Below are positions 17,394 to 22,866 of a DNA stretch of 32,160 nucleotides, one piece after another. The notes under the pieces were generated by a model that was not told the origin of the DNA, did no database searches, and saw nothing but the letters and a program-made list of their open reading frames with translations. Every line of letters starts with the position of its first letter. The first letter of the stretch is position 1. Source of the stretch: Cytophagaceae bacterium (GTDB taxonomy: Bacteria; Bacteroidota; Bacteroidia; Cytophagales; Flexibacteraceae); the NCBI GenBank assembly GCA_027490155.1, contig JAIXYP010000044.1, positions 1 through 32,160 of the forward strand, read 5' to 3'. The translations under genes were made by a program, and so were the position numbers.

Positions 17394-17568
17394 GCGGTGA
17401 AGGTGGTTTTGATGCCTTTGGGTTTGGTGGTTGTGTTGGTTATTAGTGCGATAAGCTGGGGCGGTGCGGTATGACCAATGCCCAGATTTGGTAAATTTTG
17501 GGGTTGGCCATTGGCTATTGCAGCCGACTGGTGCTTACTTGCTGGCTATAACGTCAGCCGGCTCAAAA

Positions 17569-17599
17569 CAAACATACTTGATCGTGAAGCAAATACCAA
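17569..17599 (-). promoter_or_regulatory. Candidate rsfS-ftsH promoter
   Basis: On the minus strand TTG (17599-17597), a 20-base spacer and TATGTTTG (17576-17569) match the Bacteroidota consensus. The leader would be about 170 bases. It overlaps the start region of birA, which supports a birA start near 17584 rather than 17464. Confidence 0.35.
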
Positions 17600-18354
17600 C
17601 CCAAGCCTTGTTTCTGGGTCAAAAACTAATTTGGCTGCCACAATGTCAGAGCACCAATGCCGAAGCTATGGATTTGGTGCGCAAAGGGCAGGCAATCGAG
17701 GGGCTGGTAGTTGGCACGGATCACCAGACGGCGGGGCGTGGCCAACGGGGCAATACTTGGGAAAGCGAACCCGGGCAAAACCTGACGGTGAGCTGGGTTT
17801 TGCGGCCTCAGCACCTGCCATTGGGGCAACAATTTGCGCTCAGCATGGCAATGGCCAACGGGGTGCGGGCGGCCTTGGCCCAACTGACGAGCCACGCGGT
17901 GACGGTCAAGTGGCCCAATGATATCTATGTCCATCAGCGGAAGATTGGTGGCCTGTTGCTTGAGTCCATCGTCCAGACTGGGAAACTATCGGCAATGGTG
18001 GTGGGGCTAGGGCTCAATATCAACCAGCTGGATGGCCTGCCACCCAACGCCACTAGCCTCGTGATGCTGACAGGGGCACATCATCCGCTGGACCAAGTCC
18101 TGGGGCTGATCTGCCACAAGGTGGAGCAGGAGTACCTTGCATTGCGACAGGTAAATGGTATCGGGGGCATCAAGCAGCGGTATATGGTGCATTTGTTGGG
18201 CTATGGGCAGCTGCGCAACTACCGCATCGCCCTCACGGGTGAGCACTTCAGCGCTATGTTGGTCGATGTATTGCCGTCGGGCAGGGCTGTCTATCGGGAG
18301 TCCGACGGGCAGCACCGCAGCTATGACCTCAAGGAGGTGGAGTGGCTTTGGTAG
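17584..18354 (+). CDS. birA: Biotin--[acetyl-CoA-carboxylase] ligase (BirA catalytic type)
   Basis: The enzyme activates biotin with ATP and attaches it to a lysine of the biotin carboxyl carrier protein. From the GTG at 17584 the protein has 256 residues. It begins near FLGQKLIWLPQCQSTNAEA, as in Bacteroidota ligases that lack the N-terminal DNA-binding domain, so it should not be a repressor. Key motifs are GRGQRGNTW (51-59), KWPND (109-113) and KIGGLLLES (120 on). There is no ATG at the family start. A TTG at 17578 or a GTG at 17464 are alternatives; the longer form would add 40 residues not expected in the family. It is divergent from rsfS and 57 bases before the methyltransferase gene on the same strand. 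Confidence 0.9.
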   Translation: MKQIPTQALFLGQKLIWLPQCQSTNAEAMDLVRKGQAIEGLVVGTDHQTAGRGQRGNTWESEPGQNLTVSWVLRPQHLPLGQQFALSMAMANGVRAALAQLTSHAVTVKWPNDIYVHQRKIGGLLLESIVQTGKLSAMVVGLGLNINQLDGLPPNATSLVMLTGAHHPLDQVLGLICHKVEQEYLALRQVNGIGGIKQRYMVHLLGYGQLRNYRIALTGEHFSAMLVDVLPSGRAVYRESDGQHRSYDLKEVEWLW

Positions 18355-18411
18355 GGTAGGTCCTTCTTGTTGCCATTTATTTTCTACCACCAATATTTCC
18401 CCCTTACGATC

Positions 18412-19194
18412 ATGTCGATTCCGCCAGACTATAAAGCTATTGTGCAAGAGGCCCAAGCCTTGGTGCGCGGCCAACTGGAGGAAGAGGGCATGACAACGGG
18501 CCATCAGGACCATGCGCATTTTGTGGCATGGGAGTCCAGCAAGATGCAGTACCAGCAATTTGACCAGTTGTTGGAGATGGTGGAGCCAACCGTCGAGCGG
18601 ATACTGGCGGCTGGCCAAAAGGTGCGTTTCCTAGACTATGGCTGTGGAGCTGCGGACCTATTGCACTACCTAGATAGCCAGCTAGAACCCGATTCGTTTA
18701 CCTATTTGGGCGTGGATATTCTGGAAGGGATGGTGCAGGAATCACAACGACAACTGCAGCAACGAAAACCCGGCATGGCCAAAGCTCAAGTACAATTGAT
18801 TGCGGCAGGTGCGGATTTCGGGGTCTATGCTGTTGGTGGTTCGATTGACCAATCATTTGATGTAGTGATTGCCTCGGGTGTATTCTCGTTGGTGGTGGAC
18901 CATACCGACGTGCTACGATTTATGCATTGTTTTGCGGGTGCACCAGCAGTGGTGCTGAACGTCTTTGCGCATGGCAAACAGGGGCCTATCAGCGCACAGG
19001 ATGACCGCTATGCCATTTATACCCTCTATGACCCCGTGCTGCTACTGGCTTACCTGCAACAAAGTGACCTGGCCACCACCCACACCATCCAGATGAAGGT
19101 CTATGACCATGAAACGGATGAAGTGGTAGGGGCACATTTGGCGCGGGATGGGGATACGGTGGTGGTGTATAGCGGGCGTTTGGTGCGGGAATAA
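18412..19194 (+). CDS. Class I SAM-dependent methyltransferase with T9SS-like tail
   Basis: The ATG at 18412 is chosen over a TTG at 18367 because MSIPPDYKAI begins the plausible protein. It has 260 residues: a helical N-terminus and a Rossmann methyltransferase core with motif I VRFLDYGCGAAD (71-82), the acidic motif LGVDI (99-103), FDVVIASGVFSLV, and a strand before the end. It should transfer a methyl group from S-adenosylmethionine; the acceptor is unknown. The last eight residues, YSGRLVRE, and the following stop region are the same as the end of the T9SS sorting domain of the gene ending at 22113. The coding DNA 19164-19194 lies inside a 48-bp direct repeat. The normal end of the methyltransferase probably lies near GDTVVV, and the tail was gained by recombination. 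Confidence 0.82.
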   Translation: MSIPPDYKAIVQEAQALVRGQLEEEGMTTGHQDHAHFVAWESSKMQYQQFDQLLEMVEPTVERILAAGQKVRFLDYGCGAADLLHYLDSQLEPDSFTYLGVDILEGMVQESQRQLQQRKPGMAKAQVQLIAAGADFGVYAVGGSIDQSFDVVIASGVFSLVVDHTDVLRFMHCFAGAPAVVLNVFAHGKQGPISAQDDRYAIYTLYDPVLLLAYLQQSDLATTHTIQMKVYDHETDEVVGAHLARDGDTVVVYSGRLVRE

Positions 19195-19211
19195 AAGTTT
19201 GTATCTTTAGG
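19164..19211 (+). repeat. 48-bp direct repeat, left copy
   Basis: It matches 20471-20518 at 47 of 48 bases; the single difference is GAA/GAG, both Glu. It covers the last codons for VYSGRLVRE, the TAA stop, and a promoter. The first 31 bases also match the end of the T9SS gene at 22083-22113. Confidence 0.9.
19180..19209 (+). promoter_or_regulatory. Candidate promoter of the two-gene cassette
   Basis: TTG (19180-19182), 19 bases, then TATCTTTA (19202-19209), one base from TAnnTTTG. The upstream element lies inside the codons of the methyltransferase tail. The ATG at 19229 is 27 bases from the start of the -7 element, the same distance as for the right copy and its ATG at 20536. Confidence 0.5.
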
Positions 19212-19228
19212 CTTCCATGTAAGTTTTA

Positions 19229-19618
19229 ATGACTATTGCTGATACGAGAATGATGATGGATAAACCTGAGGACATCGTTTTGTGGGAGTTTAATATTTGC
19301 GATGCGATTGATAGTGTCGCTGATATTGAATTTCAGAGGAAGGTTTGGCTAGGTTTGGACTTACGTTATTGTTCGTCATTCCACGAAGTTATCATGATCC
19401 TTTATGATGATTGCTGTTTTGAAGACTACATCGTTTATCGAAAGCAAACATACGGCATTGATATTTTATGGGTTCTTATGTGTGACCTTGATAAACTAAT
19501 GTCTGCTTATGATCCAGATAATGTCTATACTGATAAATTTGTTTTGACTGACCCAGAATGGTGGAAAATTACGCTTTTAGCAAAAGCCGTTCTGGAGGAA
19601 ATGAAGCGCTATGTATAG
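19229..19618 (+). CDS. Acidic small protein of unknown function
   Basis: I do not recognise this 129-residue protein. It has no signal peptide or membrane segment, is rich in Asp and Glu, has a YDDCCFEDY stretch with paired Cys, and ends with a helical DPEWWKITLLAKAVLEEMKRY segment of the general kind seen in small immunity-like proteins, though no family can be named. The gene is clearly AT-richer than the methyltransferase gene before it. It starts 18 bases after the left 48-bp repeat, whose promoter should drive it. Its stop codon overlaps the start of the next gene by 8 bases (ATGTATAG), so the two are probably translated together and may act as a pair. A toxin-immunity or defence role is possible but not shown by sequence. 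Confidence 0.65.
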   Translation: MTIADTRMMMDKPEDIVLWEFNICDAIDSVADIEFQRKVWLGLDLRYCSSFHEVIMILYDDCCFEDYIVYRKQTYGIDILWVLMCDLDKLMSAYDPDNVYTDKFVLTDPEWWKITLLAKAVLEEMKRYV

Positions 19619-20279
19619 TCTATCTAAATATCTCCTATTTGGACTTCTGAGTATGCTTGTCATCATATATGTTCTAGGCTGGCATGATATGATCGCAAAC
19701 GGCATGTTGAGTAAACATCCACTTGACAATATTAGAAGGTCATTTAAGGATTATCTGGGAGCTATTTATTACTTCAAATACATAGTACTTATAGGTACTG
19801 CAATGATCGCTTTAGCACTTTATGGGCTAAGAAGTCTTGTTAAAAGTGCAAGGAAATCTTTGCTTTGGGTTGTATTTTTCGGCTATTGCCTTGCGGTAAT
19901 TCCTCACCTAATTGTTTGGCCGTTATGGATTTATGGAACCGATCCGCTTGATCATTTACCTCATTGGGAGTTTTTGTATACAGCATTTTTTCTGCCGATT
20001 TGTCTAATTATTTTAGCGACTGGATACCATAAGAAGTATGGACATAGTGTCGTTGAATTGCTTATTATCTATTTGGTGTTTTTGACTTGTATATGGCTAT
20101 CTTGTTCTATAGGATTTTTTGTTTGGGTCCATGCAATGGGCACAGGTTTTATAAATGATAGCGAAACTTATGGAGTTTTGACTTTTATGCGATTTTTGGG
20201 CTGTATGGTTATTACTATTGGGTTTTTATTTGTTTACTTTTCGTCTAGAAAGAGAAGGATAGATAAACCTAATGTCTGA
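19611..20279 (+). CDS. Six-helix membrane protein of unknown function
   Basis: A 222-residue protein with about six membrane segments (roughly residues 7-25, 50-70, 77-100, 115-137, 145-172 and 185-210) and a basic C-terminus (SSRKRRIDKPNV), likely on the cytoplasmic side. No catalytic motif or known family is recognised. It overlaps the upstream acidic protein gene by 8 bases, so it is probably made by translational coupling. The DNA is AT-rich like its partner. Its TGA stop (20277-20279) is followed in the same frame by the orphan T9SS sorting domain, separated by only four codons from the homologous part. The gene therefore sits directly against that domain's broken edge. Confidence 0.7.
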   Translation: MYSLSKYLLFGLLSMLVIIYVLGWHDMIANGMLSKHPLDNIRRSFKDYLGAIYYFKYIVLIGTAMIALALYGLRSLVKSARKSLLWVVFFGYCLAVIPHLIVWPLWIYGTDPLDHLPHWEFLYTAFFLPICLIILATGYHKKYGHSVVELLIIYLVFLTCIWLSCSIGFFVWVHAMGTGFINDSETYGVLTFMRFLGCMVITIGFLFVYFSSRKRRIDKPNV

Positions 20280-20501
20280 ATCAAGGGTGCCAACCCCTTC
20301 CAAGATCAGTTTACCCTTGCCACAAAGTCTGGTGCTACGGAGGTGGGGCAGCTGTACCTCTTTAATCTACTAGGGCAACAGGTGTACCAATCCCCCTACA
20401 CCACTGGGGAGCCGATGCGCACCCCACCCATCAAACCAGGTATCTACCTCTGGCGCTTTGTGGGTAAGGAGGTGTATAGCGGGCGTTTGGTGCGGGAGTA
20501 A
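20280..20501 (+). pseudogene. Orphan T9SS C-terminal sorting domain fragment
   Basis: The frame directly after the TGA at 20277 encodes IKGA and then a complete T9SS sorting domain (NPFQDQFTLATKSG ... PGIYLWRFVGK ... YSGRLVRE) with a TAA at 20499, but it has no start codon, signal peptide or cargo part. Over 20291-20501 it aligns without gaps to 21903-22113 in the next gene: 13 differences in 211 bases, 12 of them synonymous, and 69 of 70 residues identical. The bias to synonymous change indicates that both copies were under protein-level selection, so the fragment was probably part of a working T9SS gene until recently. The cargo part appears to have been replaced by the AT-rich gene pair. 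Confidence 0.85.
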
Positions 20502-20518
20502 AAGTTTGTATCTTTAGG
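20471..20518 (+). repeat. 48-bp direct repeat, right copy
   Basis: The partner of 19164-19211, 1307 bases downstream. It covers the end of the orphan sorting domain, its stop codon and the promoter of the next gene. Recombination between the two copies would remove exactly the two-gene cassette and the orphan domain, leaving the promoter in place. Confidence 0.9.
20487..20516 (+). promoter_or_regulatory. Candidate promoter of the T9SS gene at 20536
   Basis: TTG (20487-20489), 19 bases, then TATCTTTA (20509-20516). It is identical to the promoter of the left repeat except for one spacer base. Confidence 0.5.
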
Positions 20519-20535: not shown

Positions 20536-22113
20536 ATGCAAACATTTAGACCTAGGGCTAGTTTTGGCGCAATTATGAAGGTACTGTTTACCTTGGCTTG
20601 TGTTTTGGTGTTGCTCGGGGTGAATGCCCAACAACTTCTGTGGCATAAAACATATCCATTCACTCAATCTCATGGGACACCAATTGGTATGGCATTGAAT
20701 AGTAATGGTGATTTATTTACCTTTAACAATAGTGAGCCTAGACTAGTTGATTCTGCAAACAACAATACTTTGTCAAACTCGATACTTAGGTTTTCTAAAT
20801 CTGGTGATTCACTAAGTTTTGACGTAAAGCAGCCCGGCATACTTAGGGGCTTCGCCTCGATCAATACTCTTTCAAATAAAAATGTAGTCGCATTAGGTTT
20901 AATGCGCCAAAGACCATTCTACTATGGGGAGAATCATCTGGACTATTGGACTGCCTTTATATTCGACTCAACAGGTCGGATAACTAAGAAAGCGATTCCA
21001 TTTAATAAGTATATTTATACAGCGACGATAGGCAACGTCGGCGGGATTTTGCCAGGCAAGAATGGTAGTTTCTGGATATATGGTACTAGGGACGATAGTA
21101 CTGTCCGTGATCATTACAAACCCTACCTTTATTTATTTGATAGTGCTGGACATCAAGTTTATGACCGAGAATATGCCGACTCTGGATTTTCTAATGTTCG
21201 ATCTATGATCAAATTGCCGAATGGTAATTTAATGATGTTTGGCCTCAGACAAATCCAGGTGATTCGTGGGACTCGATATTATAATGTTGGTAAGTGTTTC
21301 TTGATGGAATTGGATACCTTGGGCAACTTGCTCCGTCGTCGTTATTTTGACCTCGATAATCGCCCTGGTTCCACGTTTACTGTAGATGGGTCGTTTAATA
21401 CGCAATTATTTGGCACTGTCCATTCTGACAGTTCTTATTTGTTATATGGTCATAATGACCGTGGTGGTCTAAGAGATAGTACTGGCTTCATCACTAAGCT
21501 TGATACCAACCTTACAACCACTCATTGGTTACAACGCATAGATCCATTATTTAAGCTACGTTTGCTGGAGGACGGTTCCTCATTTATTGCTGGCTATGTA
21601 TTTAGCCGTCAAGCTAAGTATCTGTATCTAAGACGATATAATTCTCTTGGTCAATTATTCCAAGACGTTAGGATTGCCGCACCACAAGGCACCTTGCCTT
21701 CAGGTCAATACCTGCTAAGTGAAGGTAATTATGAATTTGCAGGGGATTCTTCAGTTGTTTTTGTAGGTAATGTAGCTGCTTTATCGACGGGTAGAACTAT
21801 CCCCTACCTCTACATCGCCAAAATAGGTGGCTACCCCAACCCTTACAACCCTTTGGCATTGCCGCTGGATCGGCGTATGATGGAGGAAACGTATGTCTAT
21901 CCCAACCCCTTCCAAGACCAATTTACCCTAGCGACAAAGTCTGGTGCTACAGAGGTGGGGCAGCTGTACCTGTTTAATCTGCTAGGCCAACAGGTGTACC
22001 AATCCCCCTATACCACTGGGGAGCCGATGCGTACCCCACCCATCAAACCAGGTATCTACCTCTGGCGTTTTGTAGGTAAGGGGGTGTATAGCGGGCGTTT
22101 GGTGCGGGAGTAA
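20536..22113 (+). CDS. T9SS-secreted protein, probable beta-propeller cargo
   Basis: A 525-residue protein with an N-terminal signal peptide (MKVLFTLACVLVLLGVNAQQ from Met14; the ATG at 20536 adds 13 residues and sits at the same distance from its promoter as the ATG at 19229). The body (about 30-435) has repeated blade-like strands (NSNGDLFTF, KNGSFWIYGTRDD, LPNGNLMMFGLRQ, LEDGSSFIAGYVF), suggesting a beta-propeller of the kind common in T9SS cargo; no catalytic residues are recognised. Residues from about 447 are a T9SS type A sorting domain (YVYPNPFQDQF to YSGRLVRE). The body is AT-rich while the sorting domain is GC-rich, as if different cargo had been joined to a resident domain. The stop codon is 21 bases from the convergent GT2 gene. 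Confidence 0.88.
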   Translation: MQTFRPRASFGAIMKVLFTLACVLVLLGVNAQQLLWHKTYPFTQSHGTPIGMALNSNGDLFTFNNSEPRLVDSANNNTLSNSILRFSKSGDSLSFDVKQPGILRGFASINTLSNKNVVALGLMRQRPFYYGENHLDYWTAFIFDSTGRITKKAIPFNKYIYTATIGNVGGILPGKNGSFWIYGTRDDSTVRDHYKPYLYLFDSAGHQVYDREYADSGFSNVRSMIKLPNGNLMMFGLRQIQVIRGTRYYNVGKCFLMELDTLGNLLRRRYFDLDNRPGSTFTVDGSFNTQLFGTVHSDSSYLLYGHNDRGGLRDSTGFITKLDTNLTTTHWLQRIDPLFKLRLLEDGSSFIAGYVFSRQAKYLYLRRYNSLGQLFQDVRIAAPQGTLPSGQYLLSEGNYEFAGDSSVVFVGNVAALSTGRTIPYLYIAKIGGYPNPYNPLALPLDRRMMEETYVYPNPFQDQFTLATKSGATEVGQLYLFNLLGQQVYQSPYTTGEPMRTPPIKPGIYLWRFVGKGVYSGRLVRE

Positions 22114-22134: not shown

Positions 22135-22866
22135 TTATTTCCCCCAAGTATTGTACTTCAGGATGCAATAAAGGGCACGGAAGGCGTCCTTCATGCCGAT
22201 TTTTTTGCCTTCCTCATACGTGCGGCCATAATAGCTGATGCCAACTTCATAGATCCTGATTTTGGGTACTTGGCTGATGCGGGCGGTTACCTCGGGCTCA
22301 AAGCCAAACCGTTTTTCGCGCAGTTTGATGCCCTGGATGGTTTTGGTATGGAACAGCTTATAGCAAGTTTCCATATCCGTTAGGTTGAGGTTGGTGAGGG
22401 CATTGCTGGCCAGGGTCAGCCACTTGTTACCGATCGAGTGCCAGAAGAACAAGATGCGGTGTGGGCGCCCCCCCATAAACCGTGATCCGAAGACGACATC
22501 GGCAAAACCAGACAAAACAGGTTTGAGCAGGATGTTATACTCTTCGGGGTCATACTCAAGGTCTGCATCCTGAATGATGAGATACTCGCCCGTGGCTTTG
22601 CTGATGCCAGTATGCAGTGCGGCACCTTTGCCTTGGTTAACCGCATGTTTGAAGTACTGAATGTTGAGCCCCGGGTTGGCACTTTTGTAGCGCATGATGG
22701 CCTCCTCGGTATCGTCCTTGCTGCAATCATTGACGATGATCACCTCTTTGCTGATGTCCCCTACGAGTTGCACGGCCTGTACCTTGTCCAGAATGCGGTG
22801 GATGGTTGGCCCCTCGTTATAGGCAGGGATCACGATCGAGAGGGTAGTAATGATGGGTGCAGTCAC
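22135..22866 (-). CDS. GT2 family glycosyltransferase (DPM1-like)
   Basis: A 243-residue GT-A enzyme of family GT2. It has the nucleotide-sugar motifs IPAYNEG (13-19), VNDCSKDDT (45-53) and QDADLEYDP (99-107, containing the DxD-type metal site), and a later RFGFEPEVTARI segment. The whole is close in layout to dolichol/polyprenyl-phosphate mannosyl- or glucosyl-transferases, without the membrane helices some carry at the end. It would transfer a sugar to a lipid-phosphate carrier or other acceptor on the cytoplasmic side; the exact sugar is unknown. It is a single gene converging on the T9SS gene, with a TACCTTTG promoter element 58 bases upstream. Confidence 0.88.
   Translation of the reverse strand: MTAPIITTLSIVIPAYNEGPTIHRILDKVQAVQLVGDISKEVIIVNDCSKDDTEEAIMRYKSANPGLNIQYFKHAVNQGKGAALHTGISKATGEYLIIQDADLEYDPEEYNILLKPVLSGFADVVFGSRFMGGRPHRILFFWHSIGNKWLTLASNALTNLNLTDMETCYKLFHTKTIQGIKLREKRFGFEPEVTARISQVPKIRIYEVGISYYGRTYEEGKKIGMKDAFRALYCILKYNTWGK

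Follow-up and report, generated by a model that had tools for sequence, protein, structure and literature searches.

Organization of the locus

The window, i.e., the whole 32,160-nt stretch of Cytophagaceae DNA analyzed here, carries at 18412-19194 (+ strand) a gene for a class I SAM-dependent methyltransferase, hereafter MT. Its product has 260 aa when read from the ATG and ends in GDTVVVYSGRLVRE, the translation of 18412-19194 closing with DGDTVVVYSGRLVRE before the stop codon; a TTG at 18367 is the alternative start of the mechanically called open reading frame. A methyltransferase domain was recognized above curated cut-offs by PF08242 (38.5 bits; cut-off, 30) and PF13847 (36.9 bits; cut-off, 27), with the Pfam matches falling within residues 70-171. 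As judged by eye, the N-terminus MSIPPDYKAIVQEAQALVRGQLEEEG has no evident signal peptide. No Por_Secre_tail match was detected in MT with Pfam and NCBIfam at an E value of 0.001: the protein shares its last residues alone with the sorting domain and falls outside the T9SS type A sorting domain family (TIGR04183), which spans a whole C-terminal domain of ~70 residues. Comparison with solved structures returned three weak matches (E 0.15-0.44), and the structure model obtained from a two-row alignment was too poor for use (mean pLDDT, 34.3).

On the left side of MT lie ftsH, rsfS, and a BirA-like biotin-protein ligase gene (17464-18354, + strand; TIGR00121, 114.8 bits; cut-off, 83.1). The latter was matched in 11 of 11 family genomes, once partially. 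Around BirA in nine other family genomes, FtsH, RsfS, and BirA were the only ones of the 17 window proteins to be matched, within stretches of 3.0 to 5.6 kb, several of which end at contig ends.

On the right side, a low-GC two-gene cassette (19212-20289, + strand; GC content of 0.361 versus 0.534 for MT) stands where the congeneric genome described below has a T9SS gene. It contains two overlapping reading frames: orf129 (19229-19618, + strand), a weak match to the SCO4402 family (NF047838; E 6.1e-9; 36.1 bits, below the cut-off of 50), and orf222 (19611-20279, + strand), a hydrophobic protein with about six possible membrane segments by hydropathy. Only sub-threshold matches were obtained for orf222, and no family was found for it at E 0.001 in Pfam or NCBIfam. 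Relatives of orf129 occur in 4 of 389 other genomes of the order. The pair ends 10 nt before an orphan T9SS C-terminal sorting domain (CTD; 20290-20501, + strand) that is devoid of head and body, directly follows an in-frame stop codon, and is 94% identical to 21902-22113. The cassette sits exactly between a promoter-like box, described below, and this headless CTD. The orphan CTD is also in the frame of orf222, from which only the stop codon splits it, a situation that could arise by chance (1 in 3).

Next comes gene B (20536-22113, + strand), a T9SS cargo gene of 525 aa with a signal-like N-terminus, judged by eye, and a CTD at 21902-22113 (+ strand) that repeats the orphan CTD. Gene B belongs to the sorting-domain family by TIGR04183 (35.2 bits; cut-off, 23; residues 454-523), and its PF18962 score of 25 bits is just below the cut-off of 27. 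A glycosyltransferase gene (22135-22866, - strand), identified by glycosyltransferase models none of which passed its cut-off, forms the right border of the array both here and in the congeneric genome described below.

The end of the methyltransferase gene repeats the end of sorting domains

The original prediction held that MT ends in YSGRLVRE and shares 31 coding bases with two T9SS sorting-domain ends nearby, with one synonymous difference. This was confirmed for the last 31 nt (19164-19194; GAA/GAG), and the match proved to be longer. The 30-mer GTGTATAGC...GAATAA at 19165-19194 recurs with one mismatch each at 20472-20501 and 22084-22113, and the repeat with the nearer copy, in the orphan CTD, covers 51 nt, 49 of which are identical (96%). 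The first copy (19161-19211, + strand) comprises the CTD-type tail of MT, the stop codon, and a promoter-like box, while the second (20468-20518, + strand) comprises the orphan CTD end, its stop codon, and the same box; the similarity thus continues 17 nt past the MT stop codon and takes in GTTTGTATCTTTAGG. Of the two predicted sorting-domain ends, that of gene B closes a whole gene, and the one at 20290-20501 belongs to a CTD with neither head nor body. Upstream of GGTGTA, no similarity between MT and the CTDs was found in the 90 nt compared.

A chance match was rejected, as 100 dinucleotide shuffles of the sequence gave no match to the 30-mer. A repeat common across the genome was rejected as well: a 24-nt version of the tail, searched with up to three mismatches in the whole genome, was found at four places only, namely, the three window copies and a T9SS gene on contig C47. 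One of the five CTDs compared ends in YSGRLVWE.

Distant homologues lack the SGRLVRE ending

Full-length matches to MT were found in 2 of 11 family genomes, both from this genus, and in none of the other nine, where a single partial match (E 0.003, 34% over part) was regarded as a distant methyltransferase and excluded from the ortholog count. From searches of 390 genomes of the order, 395 genomes of the phylum, and the family, we retained 16 distant homologues, which are 24-36% identical to MT over parts of their length and have C-terminal ends of varied length. The SGRLVRE ending is absent from all 16. In 11 of these homologues, we read the last core strand as [DE][FY][TCA]-hydrophobic-[YFRKQ], which matches GDTVVVY of MT; the other five were left out, as their last strand was not confidently recognized. 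The residues past the equivalent of Tyr253 number 1, 1, 3, 6, 6, 7, 9, 20, 2, 1, and 2 in these proteins and 7 in MT. The proposed check of whether homologues end shortly after GDTVVV therefore gave a mixed answer: because they stop 1 to 9 residues (in one case 20) past this tyrosine, the tail cannot be called extraneous from its length alone, and it is its sequence that is diagnostic. By our reading, the conserved part of MT would stop at about Tyr253, where the shared DNA begins. In a MAFFT alignment of the C-terminus, LVRE of MT was forced to pair with LVRK of the homologues by means of a long gap; we favor matching the last strand without gaps, a judgment that comes from reading the sequences and was not computed.

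A congeneric genome carries the same ending before a T9SS gene

The sole other genome of this genus among those searched, G001, contains the only ortholog found, which is 90% identical in protein over all 260 residues. It lies on contig CANHWS010000382 (C382) of a MAG labelled Cytophagaceae. The G001 protein also ends in YSGRLVRE, and its gene is directly followed by TAATTGTTTGTATCTTTAGG and then by a gene starting with MQTFRPRASSGAILK; both the spacer and the head, MQTFRPRAS, are those of the T9SS array. The body of this gene, gene C, is unlike that of gene B, and the contig ends inside gene C, leaving its own CTD unseen. Another G001 contig, C221, carries a partial T9SS gene A, the same junction, gene B, and the glycosyltransferase gene. 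Joining both contigs was considered and rejected, as C221 contains no match to the end of C382; we infer a full G001 array in the order MT-C-...-A-B. No match to orf129 was found in G001. Within G001, 109 of the 120 nt compared are identical between the MT/C junction and the A/B junction. Tail, stop codon, spacer, and head thus make up one repeated array junction, with MT occupying the position of an array gene.

These observations bear on the prediction that the 3′ end of MT was rewritten by recombination. The proposed origin is supported by a CTD-type ending found in 0 of 16 homologues, and the timing has to be revised: since the G001 ortholog has the same tail with a T9SS-array gene behind it, the graft would predate the split of the two species. 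An ortholog ending in YSGRLVRE away from T9SS neighbors, which would count against the prediction, was not encountered, the G001 ortholog itself preceding an array gene.

Of the 30 sites in the tail, three differ between the two MT genes. As all three differences are synonymous, the tail may be under ordinary constraint. At each of these sites, one MT keeps the CTD consensus base, so that by parsimony the ancestral MT tail would equal the CTD consensus at 30 of 30 sites. Over the whole gene, 90 of 783 sites differ, and 49 of the 74 changed codons are synonymous. Taken together, the sequences suggest that the graft already existed when the two species split and that it may have been recent at that time. 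Over the 47 nt of tail and spacer, MT of the window differs from its own orphan CTD at one position and from the G001 MT at five. As it is closer to the orphan CTD of its own genome than to its ortholog, the MT tail may have been overwritten again later in this genome.

Sorting domains are nearly identical beneath diverged bodies

Sorting-domain matches of the T9SS type number at least 150 in the genome of the window and at least 148 in G001. In the subfamily of interest, bodies are ~48-82% identical in protein, and the CTDs (window 20290-20501 and 21902-22113; loci L003 and L044) show much higher similarity at synonymous sites than the bodies do. Gene B and the C47 gene are located on separate contigs; identical bases occupy 34 of 39 fourfold sites in their CTDs versus 35 of 92 in their bodies, and identical amino acids 69 of 72 versus 205 of 424 positions. 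Across the ten pairs formed by the five CTDs, fourfold agreement ranges from 25/35 to 32/37. Synonymous similarity confined to the CTD segment of otherwise diverged paralogues is a mark of conversion or recombination, and the comparison of gene B with C47 displays it. Codon preference could also raise agreement at fourfold sites. Given that CTDs are far more alike than bodies, even at fourfold sites and across two contigs, recombination at the CTD is likely frequent. CTDs may have been copied between genes or bodies swapped beside CTDs, and either process would put breakpoints at the CTD.

Between the window and G001, gene B occupies the same place and has 274 of 438 identical residues in its body and 71 of 72 in its CTD. 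Its last 30 nt show no difference between genomes, compared with 18 differences at the 182 other CTD sites, a contrast that is not significant (Fisher P = 0.083). Two further 3′-only remnants were noted: the orphan CTD of the window and a CTD end of ~67 nt beside rlmN on G001 contig C194, the latter being excluded from the tail and CTD counts. At this rlmN site, C47 of the window's genome (L003/L051) carries a whole T9SS gene of 514 aa, and C194 of G001 (L050, ~1134-1200) carries only the 3′ remnant.

A promoter-like element overlaps the shared tail

Promoters recognized by sigma-A in Bacteroidota have a -33 box at a fixed spacing from the -7 box. The junction holds a hypothetical promoter-like element, TTTG-N19-TATCTTTA (19179-19209, + strand), with TTTG located inside the Arg-Leu codons of the tail. 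One may thus tentatively propose, with less than even odds, that the next gene is driven by TTTG, within the final codons, and TATCTTTA, past the stop codon, so that whichever gene lies upstream keeps these codons. In agreement with this possibility, the element is kept in 4 of 4 junctions compared, and related boxes are enriched before genes: upstream of 307 crude gene calls, TAnnTTTG occurs 85 times versus 21.8 expected (antisense, 38) and TAnnTTTA 21 times versus 11.1 expected (antisense, 13). In Flavobacterium psychrophilum, the -7 consensus of sigma-A is TAnnTTTG (PMC9723704). However, TATCTTTA differs from TAnnTTTG at its last base, and no clear -33 spacing peak emerged in the 307 upstream regions. 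TTTG precedes boxes at a spacing of 19 in 3 of 106 cases, equal to the count at a spacing of 13 and without a clear peak, and two of these three cases are the junction copies themselves. Furthermore, 15 of 100 in-window shuffles gave two or more TTTG-N19-box matches. With no clear peak at spacing 19, support is limited to the -7-like box, whose use as a promoter is hypothetical. Such a module would account for the retention of the tail and not for its origin, and is compatible with a recombination scar.

A more elaborate version, which we consider unlikely, is that the last ~30 nt of the CTD and the box constitute a recombination and expression module. Variable gene bodies or whole cassettes would then be swapped in and out, flanked on the left by an invariable tail carrying the promoter and on the right by an invariable CTD, with MT acting as a fixed left anchor whose coding end is part of the next gene's promoter. 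If this were true, Bacteroidota would have a simple route to swap secreted cargo beside a fixed promoter.

The tail resembles sorting-domain ends in general

The collections searched provide no outgroup for the ancestral 3′ end, as they contain only two MT orthologs. The direction of transfer was addressed with a position profile of the C-terminal octapeptides of 39 CTD proteins from the window's genome lying outside this subfamily (L102 left out). YSGRLVRE scored 10.7 bits, above 23 of the 39 CTD ends when each was scored with itself left out. Among 288 gene ends in which a crude motif did not mark a CTD, the median score was -9.6; two of them reached 10.7, and both (L140 and L143) are above the TIGR04183 cut-off. 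In total, 8 of 296 sampled protein ends reached 10.68, namely, MT, gene B, four others that were tested and all found above the TIGR04183 cut-off, and two members of the profile itself, taken from TIGR04183 matches. MT is the only one of these eight without a sorting domain, the other seven having one. Since YSGRLVRE scores like an ordinary CTD end of this genome, MT is the sole exception, and the tail is missing from all 16 homologues, transfer from CTD to MT is the supported direction.

In the opposite scenario, the octapeptide would be native to MT, the first T9SS gene would have been duplicated in tandem, connecting its CTD with the end of MT, and gene conversion would have carried this ending to the other CTDs of the subfamily. 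The extent of the junction repeat, from the MT tail over the stop codon and spacer into the head of the following gene, is what one would expect from a tandem duplication, and the subfamily CTDs are homogenized. By our reading, Tyr is also found at the equivalent position in some MT relatives, and one relative has a tail of the same length. We nevertheless find this scenario distinctly unlikely, as the octapeptide fits the profile of unrelated CTDs, MT is the sole exception among the eight ends with such a score, and extra spreading steps would be needed, among them transfer to the distinct C47/C194 locus of both genomes. Finally, reads collapsed or wrongly joined at the repeat can hardly explain the tail: the window copies are nearly identical and both genomes are draft assemblies, but the tail is joined to MT in a separately deposited congeneric assembly with its own substitutions, although an artefact is possible at the cassette junctions of this genome.

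The tail as a probable scar of recombination with a T9SS array gene

We propose, with a probability of about 75%, that the 3′ end of MT is a recombination scar from a T9SS array gene that is older than the split of the two congeneric genomes. This proposal starts from the repeat and its limits, the tail shared with G001, the CTD-like nature of this tail, and the alike CTDs over diverged bodies. The scenario begins in a common ancestor of, at minimum, both congeneric genomes sampled: there MT would have become the immediate neighbor of a T9SS cargo-gene array, and the end of one array gene would have taken the place of the codons with which MT originally ended. The join is in frame, at the short shared stretch GGTGTAT, which provides the codons V-Y in both MT and the CTD. 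MT would thereby have acquired SGRLVRE and the array gene's stop codon, followed by the spacer and box that lead into the next gene of the array. A single deletion or replacement removing a first array gene down to its last ~30 nt would be the simplest way to this arrangement. A second event, in the window's genome and not in G001, would have placed the low-GC cassette between the box and the start of a CTD, replacing one or more T9SS genes and leaving the orphan, headless CTD behind. The order of these events, like the direction of transfer and the deletion route, is deduced from sequence comparison.

The mechanism behind such a scar is ordinary, and its outcome is modestly unusual. For T9SS sorting-domain recombination, the MT tail would represent a clean, small fossil, indicating that sorting-domain ends can be grafted onto unrelated genes. 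The locus also indicates that the cargo of different secreted proteins within one genome can diverge with their sorting domains remaining almost the same. For annotation, it calls for caution, as a CTD-like C-terminal peptide alone does not mean secretion.

Comparison with known systems

Class I SAM-dependent methyltransferases of ~210 aa from other Bacteroidota belong to the same domain family as MT and have a similar last strand before the tail; they differ by their size, MT being longer with 260 aa, and by the SGRLVRE end, present in 0 of 16. The T9SS type A sorting domain (TIGR04183/PF18962), of which gene B is a member by TIGR04183, would be the donor family of the MT tail, although MT shares only its last residues and yields no domain match.

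Among open-access titles and the beginnings of abstracts on T9SS recombination and domain shuffling, no title dealt with CTD ends grafted to other genes, and the consulted part of PMC5714932 holds nothing on CTD recombination. The closest parallel is offered by the T9SS surface proteins of Porphyromonas gingivalis, for which the consulted part of PMC5266723 describes domain rearrangement and allelic exchange. Like the products of the array studied here, the gingipains and HagA are modular surface proteins in which a conserved C-terminal domain accompanies variable adhesin parts and which are diversified through recombination and allelic exchange. As far as this part of the source goes, exchange in P. 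gingivalis involves alleles and domains between strains, whereas here the CTDs are alike across paralogues on two contigs. Moreover, unlike in the P. gingivalis case, a CTD end is found here on a methyltransferase without sign of export.
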